Assembly: GCF_000190755.2 (NCBI RefSeq)
Contig: NZ_JH109153.1
Span: 124,001 to 188,000, forward strand
Source: Methylobacter tundripaludum SV96
GTDB lineage: Bacteria > Pseudomonadota > Gammaproteobacteria > Methylococcales > Methylomonadaceae
Reading direction: 5' to 3'
DNA: 64,000 nucleotides
Shown here: positions 15,898 to 57,682 of the stretch, one piece after another
Layout: the number at the start of each line of letters is the position of its first letter
Position numbering within the stretch: position 1 is the stretch's first letter
Made by a program: the position numbers and the translations under genes
Notes under the pieces: generated by a model
Seen by the model: only the letters and a program-made list of their open reading frames with translations
What the model was told of the DNA's origin: nothing
The model's database searches: none

Positions 15898-15955
15898 AAC
15901 TTAGACTGCTGGATTATTAGACCGAGACTCAGAAGTATCGCACAATTCGTATTAA

Positions 15956-16477
15956 CGTCATCCCGGCAGGGAATGCCGGGAACCAGAACACAGGGATGTG
16001 CCAGAGTGAACGTATGGAAAAACAACCGTGCGTATATCGTGTGCTTATAATTATTGCACAAATTGTATCAACGTCATCCCGGCAGGGAATGCCGGGATCC
16101 AGAACACAAGGATGTGCCAGAGTGAACGTATGGAAAAACAACCGTGCGTGTATCGTGTACTTATAATCATTACACAAAAATTGTATCAACGTCATCCCGG
16201 CATGGAATGCCGGGAACCAGAACACAGGGATGTGCCAGAGTGAACGTATGGAAAAACAACCGTGCATGTATCGTGTGCTTATAATCATTGCACAAATTGC
16301 ATCAACGTCATCCCGGCAGGAAATGCCGGGAACCAAAACACAGGGATGTGCCAGAGTGAACGTATGGAAAAACAACCGCGTGTATCGTGTGCTTATAATC
16401 ATTGCACAAATTGCATCAACGTCATCCCGGCAGGGAATGCCGGGAACCAGAACACAGGGATGTGCTACAGTGAACCT
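15956..16477 (+). repeat. Tandem array: five palindromes with GIY-YIG gene leader stubs
   Basis: Five copies start with CGTCATCCCGGC at 15956, 16072, 16190, 16306 and 16420 (periods 116, 118, 116 and 114). Each unit has a hairpin (CCCGGCAGGGAATGCCGGG or a close variant), a leader containing ACACAGGGATGTG, then ATGGAAAAACAACC. That is the start codon and first codons of the nuclease gene at 16478. In copies 1-4 this stub runs into about 40 bp containing TATAAT or TATAAT-like boxes and then the next hairpin; copy 5 runs into the intact gene. Copies differ by a few substitutions and 1-3 base indels. Confidence 0.92.
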
Positions 16478-16810
16478 ATGGAAAAACAACCCTGTGTTTA
16501 TATTCTTGCCAGCCGCCCTAATGGGACGCTTTATATTGGAGTCACATCCAATCTAATCGGGCGCGTATATCAACACCGTCAGAATTTAATTGCCGGTTTT
16601 ACTCAGCGTTACAACGTACATAACCTAGTCTGGTACGAACCACACGAGCAACTGGAAAGCGCCATCTTGCGGGAAAAACAACTCAAAAATTGGTCTCGCG
16701 TGGCAAAAAAGCGGTTGATTGAATTGACTAATCCCCAGTGGCATGACTTGTCGCCTGATCTGGGGTTGCCATCCCTGGCAGCTGGATCCCGGCATTCCCT
16801 GCCGGGATGA
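16478..16810 (+). CDS. Small GIY-YIG nuclease, bounded by inverted palindromes
   Basis: A 110-residue single-domain GIY-YIG protein (COG2827-like). The motif is VYIL at 7-10 and LYIG at 18-21, with the conserved arginine in GRVYQHR (Arg29) and the catalytic glutamate in LREKQLKNW (about Glu66). The fold predicts DNA cleavage. The start codon is the fifth repeat of a leader found in four upstream stubs. The last residues (GSRHSLPG) and the TGA stop are encoded by an inverted copy of the upstream palindrome, so the gene sits between inverted hairpins like a small mobile unit. A role in repair or in repeat mobility is inference. Confidence 0.85.
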   Translation: MEKQPCVYILASRPNGTLYIGVTSNLIGRVYQHRQNLIAGFTQRYNVHNLVWYEPHEQLESAILREKQLKNWSRVAKKRLIELTNPQWHDLSPDLGLPSLAAGSRHSLPG

Positions 16811-16811
16811 C
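16782..16811 (-). repeat. Inverted copy of the array palindrome at the gene end
   Basis: These 30 bases are the exact reverse complement of the palindrome start of repeat copy 2 (from 16073). They contain the stop codon of the GIY-YIG gene. With the array on the left, the gene is enclosed by inverted hairpins. Confidence 0.9.
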
Positions 16812-16873
16812 AAGCTACATTGGTATCTGTACCCCTCGCTGGGAAACATGCTCCTCCACTTGCAAAAGCAACC

Positions 16874-18055: not shown

Positions 18056-19990
18056 CTACAATTCTAAAAACTCTTGCTGCACATCAATTTCATTATTAAT
18101 TTCCTCTAGTAATTTTTGAGCTGCTATTTCATCAAATTGCCACTCAATACTACATTCAATAAGCTTGTTTATATTTTCAAAATATTCTGCTTGATTAACA
18201 ATGGTTGATTGATTTTCATCAATTTCATAAACCCCATCAATTCCGTTATAAGTATTGAAAATAATATCCAGGCCTTCTGAGTATTTAATTTTTTTTATAA
18301 AAAATAATTCTATTGATTGACTATGCAATACATTGATTGAATTAGAGATTAATGTATTAAAAACAAATATTTGGGAATTTCCATCTAAATGCCTATGGTA
18401 ACCTCCAAAATTAAATTTATTATTTCCCCCTAAATCACGAAATAAATTATCACACAATTTTTCAGATAACTCTTTACTTTTGGCATTGATAAGATACAAC
18501 TTATTCCCTACTAACAATTTTTTTCTTTTTATAATTAACTCTCGGTTAATTTTGTTAGGCATGTTCGTATAAATTGAGTTAAACTCTTTTAATAAATTTT
18601 CTAATATGTCTTTTAAAATTGATTGTCTAAAATAGGATGACTCAATATCAGCACATAAAGAAACTAAATTAATATGACTATCAAAGTTTACTTCTTTATA
18701 ATATTTAAGCAATATTTCTAATTGTTTTCCTTGCATATTTCTACAAATACATAAAGCCGAAAAATACTCCTGAATTGAACGGTGCGCCCATCGAATATAA
18801 TTACCTTCATGAATCATTAATGGAACTGCATGAGTTAAATCATGAATAATATCGGAGGATATTGCTGTAGGTAACGCTGCTAGTTGTTTTGCCTTATCAA
18901 CAAATTTAAGCAGCTCATCTTTTGTGTACTCAACCTTTTGTTCTCTGTAGGATAAATACCCTAAATAACGTAACACTTGTTCAAATGCATCAATATCAAG
19001 TTTACTTCGTTTATTTCTTTGAAATTCTCCACCTTCTTTAGTCAAGTCATGTGACTCATACAAGGCCTCGAATACTTGACGGTAAAAAATATGCCGTTTC
19101 AAAGGAATTATTGCCTTGTACTCGAAAGACTTATAAAGGAGTGAAGTCAGCAATGGATTAACAAGAAATTCTTCGATATTTTTATATTCTGGTTGTTCCA
19201 ATTTACTGACTAATTTTTCTGCTAAATTATTTTCTGCATACTTCCGTAATAAACAAAATGCTTCTTCTCTTAATAGCGGTTTGATGGTGAAACGTTGAAA
19301 ATCAGCAAATGCAATCAGCCCTTTTTCGTCCCTAGAGGTTATAAAATACTTATTCTTTGGAGCTTTCGTAATAAAAGTTTGTAAATTTGCTGTTACTTCA
19401 GGTCTTTCGCTATCAGCTATTTCATCATAACCGTCAAAGAAAAACACAAACTCTCCTGATTCTAACAAATTAATGATTAAGCTACGCTCACTGCTACCAT
19501 CAATTTCTGCCAGTTGTTCTATAATAAAATCAAGTAACAATTTTTCTCTTGATAACTTACGAAGTTCGATAAATACCGGCATTCCAGATTTTTGTTTAAC
19601 ACAATTAATAAACAAGTATTTAAGTAAAGTCGACTTACCCATTCCAGCCGTATCGACAATAAGTAGTTTGTTTAATTTATTTACGGTTTTGAGTGGGTAT
19701 GAATTTATTTTTTCTTCAACTGTTTTATCGCTTCCAGATGTATGCTTCACAAGTGTTAGCGGAATATAATAATCATCAAGGCGTTTTTGTTCATTTTTAA
19801 ATACTATCGATGTAAATCGTGAATGTCTTTCATATTCATTTTCTAAATATTTCCCATAAGAATTAAAAATATGGTGATAAGTTAGTTTTAGCTCTTCGTT
19901 AATTTTTGAAGTTAACTTATCAATAACAGGTTTTAATAAATCAGCTACAGGTTTAGCTAAAACAGCTATTGTGGCGGTAGTTAGTGCCAT
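18056..19990 (-). CDS. NACHT-domain STAND NTPase (candidate anti-phage protein)
   Basis: A 644-residue soluble protein. A helical N-terminal region (1-100) without a known effector domain is followed by a NACHT module. The P-loop is VDTAGMGKSTLLKYL (Lys119), the hydrophobic Walker B strand ends in FFFDGYDE (Asp186, Asp189) and the sensor region is FITSR (Arg220). HRSIQEYFSA is typical of the C-terminal end of the NTPase region. A C-terminal domain of about 200 residues has no motif I recognise. Bacterial NACHT proteins are known to act in phage defence. Base composition is clearly more AT-rich than the flanking genes, suggesting horizontal origin. GGAGG lies 4 nt before the ATG. It stands alone, convergent with zapE. 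Confidence 0.88.
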   Translation of the reverse strand: MALTTATIAVLAKPVADLLKPVIDKLTSKINEELKLTYHHIFNSYGKYLENEYERHSRFTSIVFKNEQKRLDDYYIPLTLVKHTSGSDKTVEEKINSYPLKTVNKLNKLLIVDTAGMGKSTLLKYLFINCVKQKSGMPVFIELRKLSREKLLLDFIIEQLAEIDGSSERSLIINLLESGEFVFFFDGYDEIADSERPEVTANLQTFITKAPKNKYFITSRDEKGLIAFADFQRFTIKPLLREEAFCLLRKYAENNLAEKLVSKLEQPEYKNIEEFLVNPLLTSLLYKSFEYKAIIPLKRHIFYRQVFEALYESHDLTKEGGEFQRNKRSKLDIDAFEQVLRYLGYLSYREQKVEYTKDELLKFVDKAKQLAALPTAISSDIIHDLTHAVPLMIHEGNYIRWAHRSIQEYFSALCICRNMQGKQLEILLKYYKEVNFDSHINLVSLCADIESSYFRQSILKDILENLLKEFNSIYTNMPNKINRELIIKRKKLLVGNKLYLINAKSKELSEKLCDNLFRDLGGNNKFNFGGYHRHLDGNSQIFVFNTLISNSINVLHSQSIELFFIKKIKYSEGLDIIFNTYNGIDGVYEIDENQSTIVNQAEYFENINKLIECSIEWQFDEIAAQKLLEEINNEIDVQQEFLEL

Positions 19991-52469: not shown

Positions 52470-55400
52470 TTAATAAAGCTCACGGATGTAAATAAATTTA
52501 CTGTTGCCTTTGTAGATGCCGAAGGTGGCGCGGGCGGTGGGATTGTCATCGAACAAATTGCCGTCACCGCCCTGATCCACACCATCCCAGTTGAACCGCA
52601 TCCAGACAGGTACCGTCGCCGTAATATCCAGTGCGCCGGCATTACCAATGCCGGGAGCTCTAAAATTTAAATTAAAATTCCCACCATCAGTAGATAGCGG
52701 TGGTTCATGAAACTGATTAGCACTTGTGCCAGCCACAGAGTAACCCAGACCACTATTACCACTACCAACACCGGTATCCCAAACAAATAATTCTGCTGGC
52801 ACTAGCCCATCATCTGCAATCGGATCTGTTGCTGTCAGGGAAATACCAGTTGTGCATTGGTCAACGGCATTCTTTACCCAGCCATTACCATTCCAATATT
52901 CAGCCGTTAACGGCATAGCCAAATCCAGTAACTCAGAACCATAAGCATTTTGCAGGCTGAGACGGCCGAAACGCACTATAGTGGTTAACGAATCAACGCT
53001 TGAAACCCCTGGAGAGACAGCCGTACCGTTGAGTTTTGTGATCTGAACACTGTCCGTGGCATCGGTAATTGTCGTCCGTATCTTTACACTATCATAGGCA
53101 CCATCTATGACCGGGGTTGTTGCGTTCCGGGCATCGAAGCGGTAGGTATCGTCTGCCGTGTAAACGCCTAGTGTCCAACTGCGTGCAGGTACTGCCGGTT
53201 GCGAGAGCCGGGATAGCAAATCGGTCGTACTAGCGCCATTAAGAAGTTTTATACCGAGAGTGGAAACTGGAACATAAGCACTTGATGAACTCACATACCG
53301 TGTTGCAGTGGTGTCAGTCTTGCTCTGTGCTGTGACATCCAGAACAATGCCCAACGCGTCGTTATCCATATAAGTAAAGCCGCCTGCACAACCGGGAGTG
53401 AAGCTTGCATTTACTGCAAAATGATGGGGATAGAAACGTCCAAGCGGCCCCAGTGCCGAACTGCCGATAGTGCAACCATACTTGCCGTTGCTGTTGCCGG
53501 TGTTCGAGGTTGATCCAGTGACGCAATCATTACTTTGATCAACCCCGGTATAGGCTGCATCGGTCACAGCGTCGGCATTGAATGTGATCGTGCCAACGTC
53601 GAGATATTGGAAGTTATTGCTAACGCTGCTACCAGCCGCCTGCGGAAAACCTGAAGCTGCTGTAGAACCCGAATTGCTCCAGGTTAACTCCGCAGTGCTA
53701 ACGGCATTCGAAACATGATCGACGACGCTCGCGGTATTAACTACCGGTGTTCCGGTATAACCAACTGTCACGCCAGGATGAACCGTCAAGTTGAAGTCCT
53801 CCCCTGCCGCAAGCTTGTTGGTTGATGGATTCAGCGCAGTCGTTGTGGAAAGTGTGAACTGTTGTGGACGCACCGAGAAATCATCGGAAGAACAGCCGTA
53901 AACGGTGGATACTACATTGGCATCACTCACCCGGCAGCGCAATGTCTTGTAAGCATTTGCCACACTGAAATTGGCCGTAGTTTTACGCCCCAAATTGGCA
54001 CTGCCAATACTCAGCGTCTGGGTTGCAACCGGATTTGCATAAGCGGAACAAGAGGCGGCCGGTGTATTGTCATCGAACAGTTCCACGGTAACATTCTTGG
54101 CGGTACCCCCGGAAACCACATAATTGCTTTCGACTGCACCCGAGGAGTTCAATGCAACCACATCAAAACTGAACGGGGTTCCTGCCAGCTTGGTATAAAG
54201 CCTCGCAGTTCCACTGCTGTAGGGTGTAATCGTGGTTTCGAGGCAATTGAAATTAGAGCCTCCCGGACAAGCCGAAACGACCATACTGCAGCTGGCAATA
54301 TTGGCCGCCGTATTCAAACAGGTTACTGTCGCATTCGCAGGAGTAGGAGAAATTGATGTTAAGCTGAGCGTGTTAGTACCAGTAGTGGATGGGGTCGCCG
54401 ACAAAAGCGCCGACCCACTCGTCCCTATGCTGACGGCAGTACCATATGGCTGCAAGCTCGCAGTGATTCCGCCGGTCGTAATCGCCGAACTGCATGTAAC
54501 GTCGGCGCACGCCTTTACCGTGATGCTCTCGGCAGCACAATTCGAGCCTTCGCCATCGTGTTCGATCTGCAAGTGATCAAAAGCAAAGCAGCTGTGCGTC
54601 GCATTCTTGATGGTCGTAATCTGAGCTGCCGTCAGTACACCATTATAAAGGGACACTTCATCGATTACACCGTTCGCCGAATAGTTGGTCGAATTACCGT
54701 TTCTGGTATCGCCAATCAGCAGGCTTTGCCAACCCGAATTAGAGGTGATATTGGTGTTTATAGACTCTTGCTCTAGTACGCCGTTAATATAGGATCGCAT
54801 GAATTGATTACCACTGCCCCCGGTTAAACTCCAAGTCACCGCAATATGCACCCAGGTTCCGGCCGCTGTTGCATATTGATTCGAATCGATACTTCGAGAG
54901 CTGCCGCCGGAGTTATCAAGTTGAAATCTGATCCGACCAGTCTTCATCAGTCGAATGAAGAATTGAGTCGAGTTAGTATTACTCGCATCGGCCAAAGTAC
55001 GATCATCGGAAGTCGCTCCGGAGTTCCAAGCCGTATTGCTCTTATACCAAAAGGCAATAGTGCCCTGATTACCCAGGCTATTAACATCAATTCCGGTATC
55101 CACTGCCTTTTGCGTTGTTGCGCTTGAGTTCTGAGGAATAGTGGCGCCGCGGCAGGTATCGCCTTTACCCCCCCCAGCTGGAGTAGCTTCCGTTGTAATG
55201 CTATTAAGTGCAGTACCGTTGCGATTGTTGCCGCTGCTGTCCTTGACCTCTCCAGACGTTCCGTTCCAGCTCGCCTCGTCCATTTTGTAGTAGGCATAGG
55301 CGCCCGGCGACAGCGCATAACTGTCGCTGGCAGTGTTGTTAGCAAGATTACTGTCATACTGTCCCCCGGCTACCGTAGCACTGTTGGTAATGGTGCCGGA

Positions 55401-57359
55401 CGCATTGACGGCCACCGCCACAGTCAGCGTAATCGTCGGTGCCGATGCGCCTCCGGCAAGACTGCTGTTATAGGTACAAACCACCACTGCCGTGCAAGTC
55501 CAATTGGTGCCGGTAGCCGAAACAAAGGTCAACCCAGTAGGCAAGGTATCGGTGACAGTAACCGCCCCGGCAGACTCGCTTAACGGACCGGCATTACTCA
55601 CGGTCAGAGTATAAGTAGCGTTGCTCCCCTGCAATAACCCCCCACCCCGAACAATAGCCAAGGACAAATCGGTGGTCTGCACGGCCTGAGAATTGGTAGC
55701 TGTGTTGTTGCTCGCCACATTATCGAGCTGAGTTCCCGCGACGAGTGCAGTGTTGATCAGCGTTCCGGTCGCATTGGCAGCGACAGTGGCGGTCAGCGTA
55801 ATCATACCGGCCGACGCGCCACTAGCCAGACTACCGCTACGTGTGCAGGTGGTATAAGGGGCATTGCACACCCAACCGATACCGGACGCACCGGTATATG
55901 TAAGTCCGGCTGGCGGCGTATTAGTCACCGTGATCGGCCCGGTCTCGGCAATGGGTCCGTTGTTAATGACGTTGAGGGTGTAGGTCACCGTCTGTCCGCG
56001 TACCATGCTGCCACTGAAAGCCATCGTGGTCGCAAGATCGGCAGCCTGCACGGCCTGAGAATTGGCAGCCGTGTTGTTGCTCGCCTGATTGTCGAACAGA
56101 ATTCCCGCTACGGTTGCAGTATTGGTGAGCGTTCCGGTCGCATTGGCAGCGACAGTGGCGGTCAGCGTAATCGCGCCAGCCGACGCGCCACTAGCCAGAC
56201 TGCCGGTACGGGTACAGGTGGTGTAGGGGGAGCTGCAAACCCAGCCAGTGCCGGACGCACCGGTATAAGTAAGTCCGGTAGGCGGCGTATTGGTCACCGT
56301 GATCGGCCCGGTCTCGGCATTAGGTCCGTTGTTGACGACATTGATGGTATAGGTCACCGTTTGTCCACGCGCCATGGCGCCATTGAAGGCCATCGTGACC
56401 GCGCGATCTGCCACCGGGGTATTCGGTACGGCGATGATTTCAGCCGACAACAGCACCAAATCTTGTCCGGAGCTATATACAGTACTGGCCGTAGTCTGCC
56501 CGGCCTGAATGATGGGAGAAGACAGCGTATAGGCATCGAAATCGACCCCATAAGAATTACTATCGCTGTTGATATTACTCACCGAATTGAACTGATTGCC
56601 GATGGGATTGCTCGCATCAGTGAGTGCTGTACTATTGAACGTGAGATCCTCGCCGCCGCCCGAAAGTGTGGGGTCACCTTCCCAAGTGATGTGCCCGTGC
56701 TTGCCGGTGGACGAACCGATAGGCGTGGGAATTTCGAAATTGCCGACATTCAGCGTAATGCTGCTGTACTGGTAATACTGAAACCCTTCATAAAGGTTAA
56801 GCACGCGAAACGTCTCGGATGAGTCGGAATAGATTACCAGTAGTGCCCAACCGCCAACTACTGCTTCTGTACTGCAATAGGCTTGGGTATTGTCGGTGTT
56901 ATCAACAGTCAATCCGGAAAAAGTATAGGTGCCGTTTCTTTTCGTTGTCACCGCACTAGTGACATCTACCACCCCGTTGAAGTAATCGTAGCCTGTCGAA
57001 GCCGAGGTATATTGCCTGCTGGCGGTAACAGAGGTTCCTTCAAAAGTTACCGTATAATCAGGTGTACCACCCGACCCCGCCCAATAAAGATAAGCCTTCT
57101 GGACAGTCGCTGAAGCAGGAATACCGGCGAGTGTCGCACTTGTAGATGTACCAGTTGAGACAACCGAACAGGCGTTAGACGTATTAGACCGAGTTCGTAT
57201 TGTTTTCTGTGTGCCGACATAACTTACGTTGCCCGCGTAGCTTTCCAGCAGCGTGATGGGCGTGTCGGCAATGGCAATATACGGAACTAGGAGCGACGCG
57301 AAACCAACAGTCGTCAGCAAAACTGTAAGGTGGATTCGCCGACAGGCAATCCACCTCAT
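52470..57359 (-). CDS. mshQ: MshQ-like surface protein with DUF11 repeats, LamG and DUF6701
   Basis: Very large secreted protein. The signal peptide is best placed at the ATG at 57359 (RRIHLTVLLTTVGFASLLV, cleavage near AIADT); the frame is open to 57560. An N-terminal beta-rich domain (to about 315) is followed by three DUF11 repeats (about 320-435, 437-557 and 560-675; the first two nearly identical). A LamG/concanavalin-like domain (about 687-920; YYKMDEASWNG, GVIDEVSLYNG) comes next. The C-terminal DUF6701 domain typical of MshQ ends FGIYKGNSKFIYIRELY. DUF11 and LamG are additions to the usual MshQ plan and suggest an adhesive tip protein of the MSHA-type pilus. It is the last gene of the locus. 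Confidence 0.82.
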   Translation of the reverse strand: MRWIACRRIHLTVLLTTVGFASLLVPYIAIADTPITLLESYAGNVSYVGTQKTIRTRSNTSNACSVVSTGTSTSATLAGIPASATVQKAYLYWAGSGGTPDYTVTFEGTSVTASRQYTSASTGYDYFNGVVDVTSAVTTKRNGTYTFSGLTVDNTDNTQAYCSTEAVVGGWALLVIYSDSSETFRVLNLYEGFQYYQYSSITLNVGNFEIPTPIGSSTGKHGHITWEGDPTLSGGGEDLTFNSTALTDASNPIGNQFNSVSNINSDSNSYGVDFDAYTLSSPIIQAGQTTASTVYSSGQDLVLLSAEIIAVPNTPVADRAVTMAFNGAMARGQTVTYTINVVNNGPNAETGPITVTNTPPTGLTYTGASGTGWVCSSPYTTCTRTGSLASGASAGAITLTATVAANATGTLTNTATVAGILFDNQASNNTAANSQAVQAADLATTMAFSGSMVRGQTVTYTLNVINNGPIAETGPITVTNTPPAGLTYTGASGIGWVCNAPYTTCTRSGSLASGASAGMITLTATVAANATGTLINTALVAGTQLDNVASNNTATNSQAVQTTDLSLAIVRGGGLLQGSNATYTLTVSNAGPLSESAGAVTVTDTLPTGLTFVSATGTNWTCTAVVVCTYNSSLAGGASAPTITLTVAVAVNASGTITNSATVAGGQYDSNLANNTASDSYALSPGAYAYYKMDEASWNGTSGEVKDSSGNNRNGTALNSITTEATPAGGGKGDTCRGATIPQNSSATTQKAVDTGIDVNSLGNQGTIAFWYKSNTAWNSGATSDDRTLADASNTNSTQFFIRLMKTGRIRFQLDNSGGSSRSIDSNQYATAAGTWVHIAVTWSLTGGSGNQFMRSYINGVLEQESINTNITSNSGWQSLLIGDTRNGNSTNYSANGVIDEVSLYNGVLTAAQITTIKNATHSCFAFDHLQIEHDGEGSNCAAESITVKACADVTCSSAITTGGITASLQPYGTAVSIGTSGSALLSATPSTTGTNTLSLTSISPTPANATVTCLNTAANIASCSMVVSACPGGSNFNCLETTITPYSSGTARLYTKLAGTPFSFDVVALNSSGAVESNYVVSGGTAKNVTVELFDDNTPAASCSAYANPVATQTLSIGSANLGRKTTANFSVANAYKTLRCRVSDANVVSTVYGCSSDDFSVRPQQFTLSTTTALNPSTNKLAAGEDFNLTVHPGVTVGYTGTPVVNTASVVDHVSNAVSTAELTWSNSGSTAASGFPQAAGSSVSNNFQYLDVGTITFNADAVTDAAYTGVDQSNDCVTGSTSNTGNSNGKYGCTIGSSALGPLGRFYPHHFAVNASFTPGCAGGFTYMDNDALGIVLDVTAQSKTDTTATRYVSSSSAYVPVSTLGIKLLNGASTTDLLSRLSQPAVPARSWTLGVYTADDTYRFDARNATTPVIDGAYDSVKIRTTITDATDSVQITKLNGTAVSPGVSSVDSLTTIVRFGRLSLQNAYGSELLDLAMPLTAEYWNGNGWVKNAVDQCTTGISLTATDPIADDGLVPAELFVWDTGVGSGNSGLGYSVAGTSANQFHEPPLSTDGGNFNLNFRAPGIGNAGALDITATVPVWMRFNWDGVDQGGDGNLFDDNPTARATFGIYKGNSKFIYIRELY

Positions 57360-57682
57360 CTGCGACAGGCTGTCATCGGTGCTGTGCATGTGCGGCGGTT
57401 TGTTGTCGCGAAACCGCCCTACAGCGCTAAGCGGGACGGGGTTTAAACTCCATACCAAACATTTACCAATACTCATGACACACATTGCAAACAGAGGTCG
57501 TTGGCGCAAACAAAACAAACTGAAACAGATCCTATTTTTCCAAACCATTATGTTATGCATTTTTACTCTCTTGGCTATTCTGTATTTGTCAGTTGCACTT
57601 TGTTGTTTCGAGTTGCGCTGGTCGACAGCTATTCATTACTCGATTTTTCTTAGCAAAAACGCCGCACTTTATGATAAGTTTC

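Follow-up and report, generated by a model that had tools for sequence, protein, structure and literature searches.

The closest described systems to the locus studied here are the RAYT/REPIN elements and the CGTC-tagged REPs. In RAYT/REPIN, the enzyme gene lies between two inverted REPs, gene-less REP pairs are the non-autonomous forms, and enzyme and repeat are inherited together (Nunvar 2010, PMC2817692; Bertels 2011, PMC3116915). The CGTC-tagged REPs, as set out in the available text of Di Nocera et al. 2013 (PMC3733652), carry a CGTC tag or its variants TGTC/CCTC, an 8-9 bp stem starting with AT, a 4-5 nt loop, and a CCA tail. They occur mostly as inverted pairs (HH dimers), take in Neisseria dRS3 and Rickettsia RPE-4/RPE-6, and are known from five phyla, with Neisseria, Rickettsia, and Wolbachia among their hosts. 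These repeats "apparently lack a dedicated transposase" in the words of that paper, the available text of which reports no CGTC-flanked tyrosine transposase either; the term "GIY" is absent from its main text.

The window, that is, the whole 64-kb stretch of Methylobacter tundripaludum SV96 DNA that was analysed, contains hairpins that share with the CGTC REPs their tag, stem, loop, CCA tail, and inverted pairing, and on these features they fit the published class. Unlike the repeats of PMC3733652, for which the available text reports no associated transposase gene, those in the window have a nuclease gene between them. We propose that a small clade of GIY-YIG nucleases is the missing partner enzyme of the CGTC REPs. 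For the window itself, we consider it probable that the locus is an autonomous REP element whose enzyme is the small GIY-YIG nuclease encoded between inverted, outward-tagged CGTC hairpins, moving by the mechanism proposed below. The wider reading, in which a hydrolytic GIY-YIG nuclease of ~95 residues recognises and spreads CGTC hairpins as a separate mobile-element class, parallel to the RAYTs, and is the enzyme that the superfamily as a whole (dRS3, RPE-4/6, and others) has been missing, seems to us only somewhat better than an even bet. A literature search whose scope stopped short of bioRxiv and most subscription papers returned no paper linking a GIY-YIG gene to REPs; PMC9465073, which names both GIY-YIG and RayT, has GIY-YIG only as a row of a gene table, with no REP link, in the part available.

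The window element and its array

An earlier note on this DNA had described five units of about 116 bp, each combining a hairpin and leader with the opening codons of a GIY-YIG gene; the fifth was joined to the intact gene, and an inverted hairpin supplied the last codons and stop. This layout is confirmed (Table 1), with hairpins at 15957, 16073, 16191, 16307, and 16421 on the plus strand and the inverted one at 16786-16811. Start-to-start spacings of the five tandem units are 116, 118, 116, and 114 bp, and Tandem Repeats Finder places the array at 15940-16491 with a period of 116, 92% matches, and a score of 946. Each unit reads, in order, CGTC plus a 9-bp stem, a 5-nt loop, CCA, a small palindrome (CACAGGGATGTG generally, CACAAGGATGTG in unit 2), a leader, and ATGGAAAAACAACC. 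Units 1-4 end after the leader, the ATG, and about eight codons of the nuclease, and unit 5 continues into the intact gene. The 3' end of the gene enters the inverted hairpin, which has a small palindrome of its own in front; since these two together encode the last ~14 residues and the stop, those residues are element-end sequence. The six hairpins are the only ones of CGTC type that the fixed hairpin rule finds in the 64 kb, and 20 mononucleotide shuffles of the window held 0.2 on average. Five of the terminal tags are CGTC and one is TGTC; the outermost A-T pair of the stem is broken (GGGAA) in units 1, 3, 4, and 5 and intact in unit 2, at the right end, and in most of the dispersed copies compared. 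The window copy is intergenic, with REP ends on it, and its neighbours are, as we take it from reading the open reading frames, an aconitase-like gene and a gene for a ZapE/AFG1-like ATPase.

Table 1. Features of the array and of the complete element, in window positions
Feature	Position	Strand	Basis or remark
Array: four truncated left-end units	15956..16419	+	Hairpin, CACAGGGATGTG-type sub-hairpin, leader, ATG + ~8 codons, linker with TATAAT-like box
Unit 1 CGTC-tagged hairpin	15956..15985	+	Hairpin rule
Unit 2 CGTC-tagged hairpin	16072..16101	+	Hairpin rule
Unit 3 CGTC-tagged hairpin	16190..16219	+	Hairpin rule
Unit 4 CGTC-tagged hairpin	16306..16335	+	Hairpin rule
Unit 5 hairpin, left terminus of the intact element	16420..16449	+	Hairpin rule
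Complete GIY-YIG REP element	16420..16812	+	Left hairpin, leader, gene, right hairpin
Left sub-terminal palindrome CACAGGGATGTG	16453..16464	+	Several dispersed REP pairs have it too
GIY-YIG nuclease gene, 110 aa	16478..16810	+	Pfam match, alignment, model
Right sub-terminal palindrome GCCATCCCTGGC	16768..16779	+	Lies in the reading frame; dispersed REP pairs have close variants
Right terminal hairpin	16783..16812	-	Tag TGTC on the minus strand; encodes the last residues and stop

Two further features of the window may be recorded. Adjoining the element and the ZapE-like gene is a 644-aa reading frame (18056-19990, minus strand) with a P-loop (DTAGMGKSTLLKYL) that by eye looks like a NACHT-type NTPase, and a 369-bp tandem repeat in two copies (55677-56397, 85% matches) lies inside a 1696-aa reading frame (52470-57560, minus strand).

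One point of the earlier note needs correction: the start of units 1-4 is not that of the living gene (..GAGTGAACGTATGG.. in units 1-4 versus ..CAGTGAACCTATGG..), and the sequence after codon 8 also differs. The stub form of units 1-4 was found once more, in the species G011, and the four units are near-identical, with breakpoints and linker common to all. Because the divergent start is shared and recurs in G011, units 1-4 look like copies of one old stub and not like independent truncations of the present gene, and the array is best read as a tandem amplification of that stub. The simplest history would be a truncated left end older than the split between G000 and G011 that was subsequently amplified in tandem to four copies in the window lineage, probably by unequal exchange. 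The earlier note had left the choice between tandem duplication and repeated insertion and loss; the near-identity of the units and their one shared stub form favour the former, and the latter is not needed for the array. If the stubs were instead left by four independent insertions and losses of the element, then the loss seen in relatives at this very site, between acnB and zapE, would supply a precedent, but the common breakpoints and linker and the single occurrence of the stub form in G011 speak against it, and one stub followed by tandem amplification is simpler. We regard four independent events as distinctly unlikely.

The 110-residue protein matches the Pfam GIY-YIG family (E 6.3e-15) and no other Pfam domain, and hence has no transposase domain known to Pfam. 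Invariant in 26 aligned sequences are Y8, Y19, G21, R29, H33, E66, and N85, and we take the conserved Tyr, Tyr, Arg, Glu, and Asn of the GIY-YIG domain to have catalytic roles. A structure model made from the 26 sequences (mean pLDDT 88.9) resembles a GIY-YIG fold, with pLDDT below 50 for residues 103-110, the hairpin-encoded end. The nearest solved structures, at modest scores, are UPF0213 (1zg2), Slx1 (6seh), and UvrC-N (1yd6), with no Foldseek match at E <= 0.001 (best 1.7e-3). The title of 6seh names Slx1 as a branched-DNA nuclease, and by analogy such an activity would fit action on hairpins or cruciforms. In the 4.85-Mb genome, the only full-length match of the window protein (P0001) is to the window gene; no CGTC hairpin lies within 1.5 kb of the two other GIY-YIG-like matches (L032, L034; 30% identity). 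No homologue was found in phages at E <= 1e-8.

Association of the nuclease with CGTC hairpins

A scan of genome contigs with a 16-row alignment gave at least 586 loci, the best 80 of which were examined for an outward-tagged CGTC hairpin within 200 bp by the fixed hairpin rule (one of them, L118, lies on the same contig as the genus locus L051). Such a hairpin is present upstream of the gene in 46, downstream in 43, on either side in 64, and on both sides in 25. At control ORFs lying over 1 kb from the gene in that DNA, hairpins are about 30 times rarer (20/739 either, 2/739 both; Fisher p 1e-61 and 4e-25, which are nominal because related loci are not independent), and short control ORFs have one in 7/180 cases. 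Hairpin density is 2.35 per kb within 200 bp of the gene versus 0.068 per kb elsewhere. The orientation is biased, with 47 plus and 17 minus hairpins upstream and 44 minus and 19 plus downstream, and the upstream plus hairpin ends 9-38 bp before the start of the match in 32 of 46 loci. A relaxed rule raises the counts to 66/80 either and 30/80 both, versus 32/739 and 2/739 for the controls. There remain 16 of the 80 loci with no outward-tagged strict hairpin (14 under the relaxed rule), and a variant inverted repeat is present at several loci that have no strict hairpin (e.g., L153, L160, L166, and L194). When only the nearest hairpin on each side is viewed, both sides are canonical at 20 of the 80 loci and one side, with nothing opposite, at 23; another 24 are arranged otherwise, for instance with whole REP pairs beside the gene, and 13 have none.

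By phylum, either-side flanking was seen at 52/64 loci of Pseudomonadota, 2/3 of Myxococcota, and 2/2 of Nitrospirota, at 1/1 each in Bipolaricaulota, Thermodesulfobacteriota, FCPU426, Rifleibacteriota, and Planctomycetota, at 3/4 unplaced loci, and at 0/1 each in Chlorobiota and Nitrospinota; since many of the records are metagenome bins, some of these placements may be wrong. A second sample, the 29 best-matching loci of 398 Pseudomonadota genomes with the window excluded and a slightly looser inner limit, gave 22/29 either and 16/29 both. Within the genus, the gene is present at E <= 1e-10 in 10 of 23 genomes. Strict hairpins stand on both sides at two of the 11 genus loci besides the window gene (L049, L051), on one side at L050, L052, L055, and L056 (the last a truncated gene), and beside rather than around the gene at L053, L054, L058, and L059; L057 has no strict hairpin. 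Matches also occur in 31 records of a plasmid collection, some of them chromosome-sized, eight of which were fetched. At loci from Shinella (L236) and Rhizobium (L237), the gene has canonical hairpins to both sides; one from Azospirillum (L235) is flanked left and right by a complete REP pair, with one degenerate arm; and in Neisseria gonorrhoeae (L231) the gene is surrounded by 16 CGTC hairpins within 3.3 kb, those closest to it on either side being non-canonical in orientation. No hairpins were found near the gene at L230 (a Rhizobium plasmid locus), L232, L233, and L234. The homologue at L234, on Planktothrix agardhii plasmid p1, sits without CGTC hairpins in a place where the record annotates an MmeI-type restriction gene on one side and the DISARM helicase gene drmA on the other. 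Near-gene hairpins match others on the same contig only a little better than those of other loci do: over 27 loci, on average 27% of other loci matched as well, with ~50% expected by chance.

The association extends from flanks to whole genomes. Among the 398 Pseudomonadota genomes, with the gene and Y1_Tnp each called at E <= 1e-10, the gene occurs in 100 and at least one strict CGTC REP in 96, and the reversed REP pattern had no matches. Genomes with at least 5 REPs have the gene in 38 of 58 cases versus 62 of 340 for those with fewer (OR 8.5, p 1.2e-12), and in the largest sampled family (f40, 74 genomes), it is present in 14/17 REP-rich genomes versus 15/57 (p 5e-5). Y1_Tnp, found in 156 of the 398 genomes, has no association with the REPs (26/58 vs 130/340; OR 1.3, p 0.38). 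The strict pattern misses AT-richer stems, as in G323, with 0 strict and 77 looser copies. A clear gene is missing from 20 of the 58 REP-rich genomes, 13 of these 20 having no profile match at E <= 0.001, and at weak-match loci from such genomes CGTC hairpins are near in 2/10; in the genus of the window, G002 has 113 REPs and no gene match at E <= 1e-10. Either, then, REPs can persist after the gene is lost, or the gene escaped detection in draft assemblies. By the pattern applied in the genus, G011 has a single REP together with the gene. The earlier note had tied the GIY-YIG nuclease to its own REP-like hairpins and named homologues lying away from hairpins, or near them at chance frequency, as the finding that would overturn this; most of the sampled homologues carry hairpins, far above controls, and the tie is seen again in genome-wide co-occurrence. 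As an association, the note's idea of a counterpart to the RAYTs is thereby largely upheld.

Hairpin class follows the nuclease tree beyond host taxonomy. Classes were assigned by stem, after inspection; 59 of the 80 loci are single-class (three of them "other"), 16 lack an outward-tagged hairpin, and five mixed loci were dropped. The class changes 12 times on the nuclease tree, which was built from 101 columns and has weakly supported branches, while free shuffles average 29.9 changes (minimum 25) and shuffles within phylum, class, and order average 29.3, 25.3, and 26.8 (200 each, p 0.005; eight of the 59 loci have no class name in this test). In Dyella, one hairpin class is found at L142 and L168 and a second at L139 and L149, and the tree places these two pairs apart from each other. 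The match to the tree shows gene and hairpin travelling together; as the two are physically linked, it may reflect co-inheritance and not recognition. Paralogues within one genome, G418, where five of six nuclease matches were fetched, have four strict hairpin families: CTGAAC (L243), CCTGCG (L244), CCAGCG (L246, both hairpins pointing the same way), and CCCGCG (L247), with only a CCTGCG-like inverted repeat at L245. Dispersed copies away from the genes, counted by hand among 59 loose-pattern places, number 12 CTGAAC, 13 CCAGCG, 8 CCCGCG, and 0 CCTGCG. In four other multi-copy genomes (15 loci fetched), hairpins stand on both sides at L248, L251, L255, L257, and L262 and on one side at L250; nine loci have none by the strict rule, some of them showing a variant inverted repeat.

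Gene-less pairs, remnants, and gene loss

With an array unit as query, the 4.85-Mb genome gave 53 matches at E <= 10, among which are at least eight inverted pairs besides the window, 0.1-0.6 kb long, and the strict pattern finds 35 copies, 18 plus and 17 minus. Among the loci fetched (30 of the 53 unit matches plus a further set), the right-end palindrome is retained in nine other REP pairs, each of which first came to light via the unit query. The interior of six of these nine gene-less pairs (L006, L007, L010, L014, L015, and L016) matches the 3' coding end of the gene or of its genus homologues better than do 300 mononucleotide shuffles (p 0.003-0.010, uncorrected), and the same test found no such remnants in L008, L024, and L025. 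The match encodes the conserved N-P-x-W-x-D-L end of the protein, and these REP pairs therefore look like internally deleted gene-bearing copies; L006 also matches the array unit over 68 nt, into the gene start, at 84%. In Rhizobium CIAT894, two REP pairs adjoining the element have, by eye, both of its internal ends (at modest scores), the hairpin sequence here being quite different. Over 145 hairpins away from the gene (52 loci), 23 interiors best match their own locus where ~2 are expected; several of the 23 are tandem neighbours, and shared interior is not general.

Other repeats are layered onto these REPs. An insert of ~50 bp, with the sequence CGGCAACTGCTCCTGCGTTGCTCTACCTCCTGCATCCATGCAGTCGTGG in direct, complementary, or closely similar form, sits at about one point beside the REP arm, at the right ends of L051, L052, and L050 and at L015, L025, L028, and L030 of the window genome, and is a nested repeat within REPs. 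An outer inverted repeat (..TTATACACAAGT / ACTTRTGTATAACG..) encloses some CGTC REP pairs, on both flanks of L010 and L027 and on the left flank of L014, and adjoins CCACGCG hairpins like those around the Y1_Tnp locus L048.

Occupied and gene-less sites, a comparison the earlier note had pointed to, can be set side by side between acnB and zapE, where relatives have lost the gene. The element occupies this site in G000, G013, G003, G011, and G007. G012 has the left end only, G014 has a single double-tagged palindrome CGTC...GACG with the gene missing, and G004 has an old stub followed by a double-tagged palindrome, the gene being gone. Such palindromes would be the product if a left and a right hairpin fused, and enzyme-made breaks or spontaneous deletion between the 9-bp arms could each provide the route. 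An acnB tree, built to order gain and loss, is mostly unresolved, and among pairs that differ in state only G011 (occupied) and G021 (no CGTC) is firm. CGTC...GACG palindromes, possibly fusion scars, also occur at L058, L109, L125, L163, L208, and L209. In Azospirillum lipoferum 4B (L235), a gap of 617 bp separates sufB from sufC and contains the gene with two REP pairs; the gap is 87-129 bp in the three closest relatives fetched (L238-L240), and five Azospirillum relatives have no element there, with intergenic variation too high to fix the ends. Neither a target-site duplication nor a base-exact empty site was established at the loci compared, sufB-sufC among them.

Mechanism, rivals, and comparison with known systems

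From these patterns we infer binding, cleavage, and movement along the following lines, with the nuclease as the mobiliser of the hairpins that the earlier note had suspected. The nuclease would recognise hairpins of its own family, as single-strand hairpins or as cruciforms, and would nick at or beside the CGTC tag, after which repair would copy or remove the segment between the hairpins. Gene-less copies with both ends would then be the dispersed CGTC REP pairs, perhaps mobilised in trans, and loss of the gene could fuse two hairpins into one double-tagged palindrome.

The GIY-YIG domain is classic for homing nucleases. A free-standing one that settled in or next to CGTC REPs already in place, the REPs themselves being spread by other means, would account for the tight flanking of the gene, for whole REP pairs beside it (24 of 80 loci are non-canonical, and L235 is a case in point), and for REPs in genomes that do not have it. 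If this were the case, however, the gene 3'-end remnants in 6 of the 9 pairs with a right-end palindrome would be hard to place, since they mean that those pairs descend from gene-bearing copies, and the spread of the REPs would be left unexplained, as Y1_Tnp does not co-occur with them. We consider such a parasite of REPs unlikely. Should RAYTs or other Y1 transposases mobilise the CGTC REPs, with the nuclease gene as a passenger, the 11 Y1_Tnp matches in the window genome, 10 of them over the Pfam cut-off, would offer candidates. A CGTC hairpin is nevertheless found within 1.5 kb of 0/11 of them, several have other hairpins of their own around them, there is no co-occurrence over the 398 genomes, and the available text of Di Nocera et al. 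2013 is without a CGTC-flanked tyrosine transposase (PMC3733652); we reject this origin as very improbable. That the hairpins are ordinary terminators or regulators around the gene by chance, hairpins being common near gene ends, is hardly credible and is rejected in view of the far poorer control ORFs, short ones included, the window shuffles, the close upstream spacing, and a hairpin class that tracks the nuclease.

Returning to an element mobilised by its own nuclease, a candidate enzyme of ~100 residues beside CGTC REPs in several phyla makes the question of their missing transposase testable. The GIY-YIG nuclease is unrelated in fold to the bacterial transposases that are known, and its type is not known to act through a covalent DNA intermediate. 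If the proposal is true, it would amount to a second, unrelated origin of REP mobility.

MITEs and insertion sequences have terminal inverted repeats and internally deleted derivatives, and the element resembles them in both. In the window genome, non-autonomous copies resemble the gene-bearing element in their interior as well as at their ends (6/9), as is MITE-like; unlike insertion sequences, the element has no known transposase domain and no target duplication has been established for it. With RAYT/REPIN (REPtron), it has in common an enzyme gene between inverted REPs, gene-less pairs, co-inheritance, and repeat-specific paralogues. RAYT/REPIN combines a tyrosine transposase (PF01797) with a GTAG tag, whereas the window element combines a GIY-YIG nuclease with a CGTC tag, and we rate the arrangement of REP and enzyme as known and the unrelated enzyme as what is new here.
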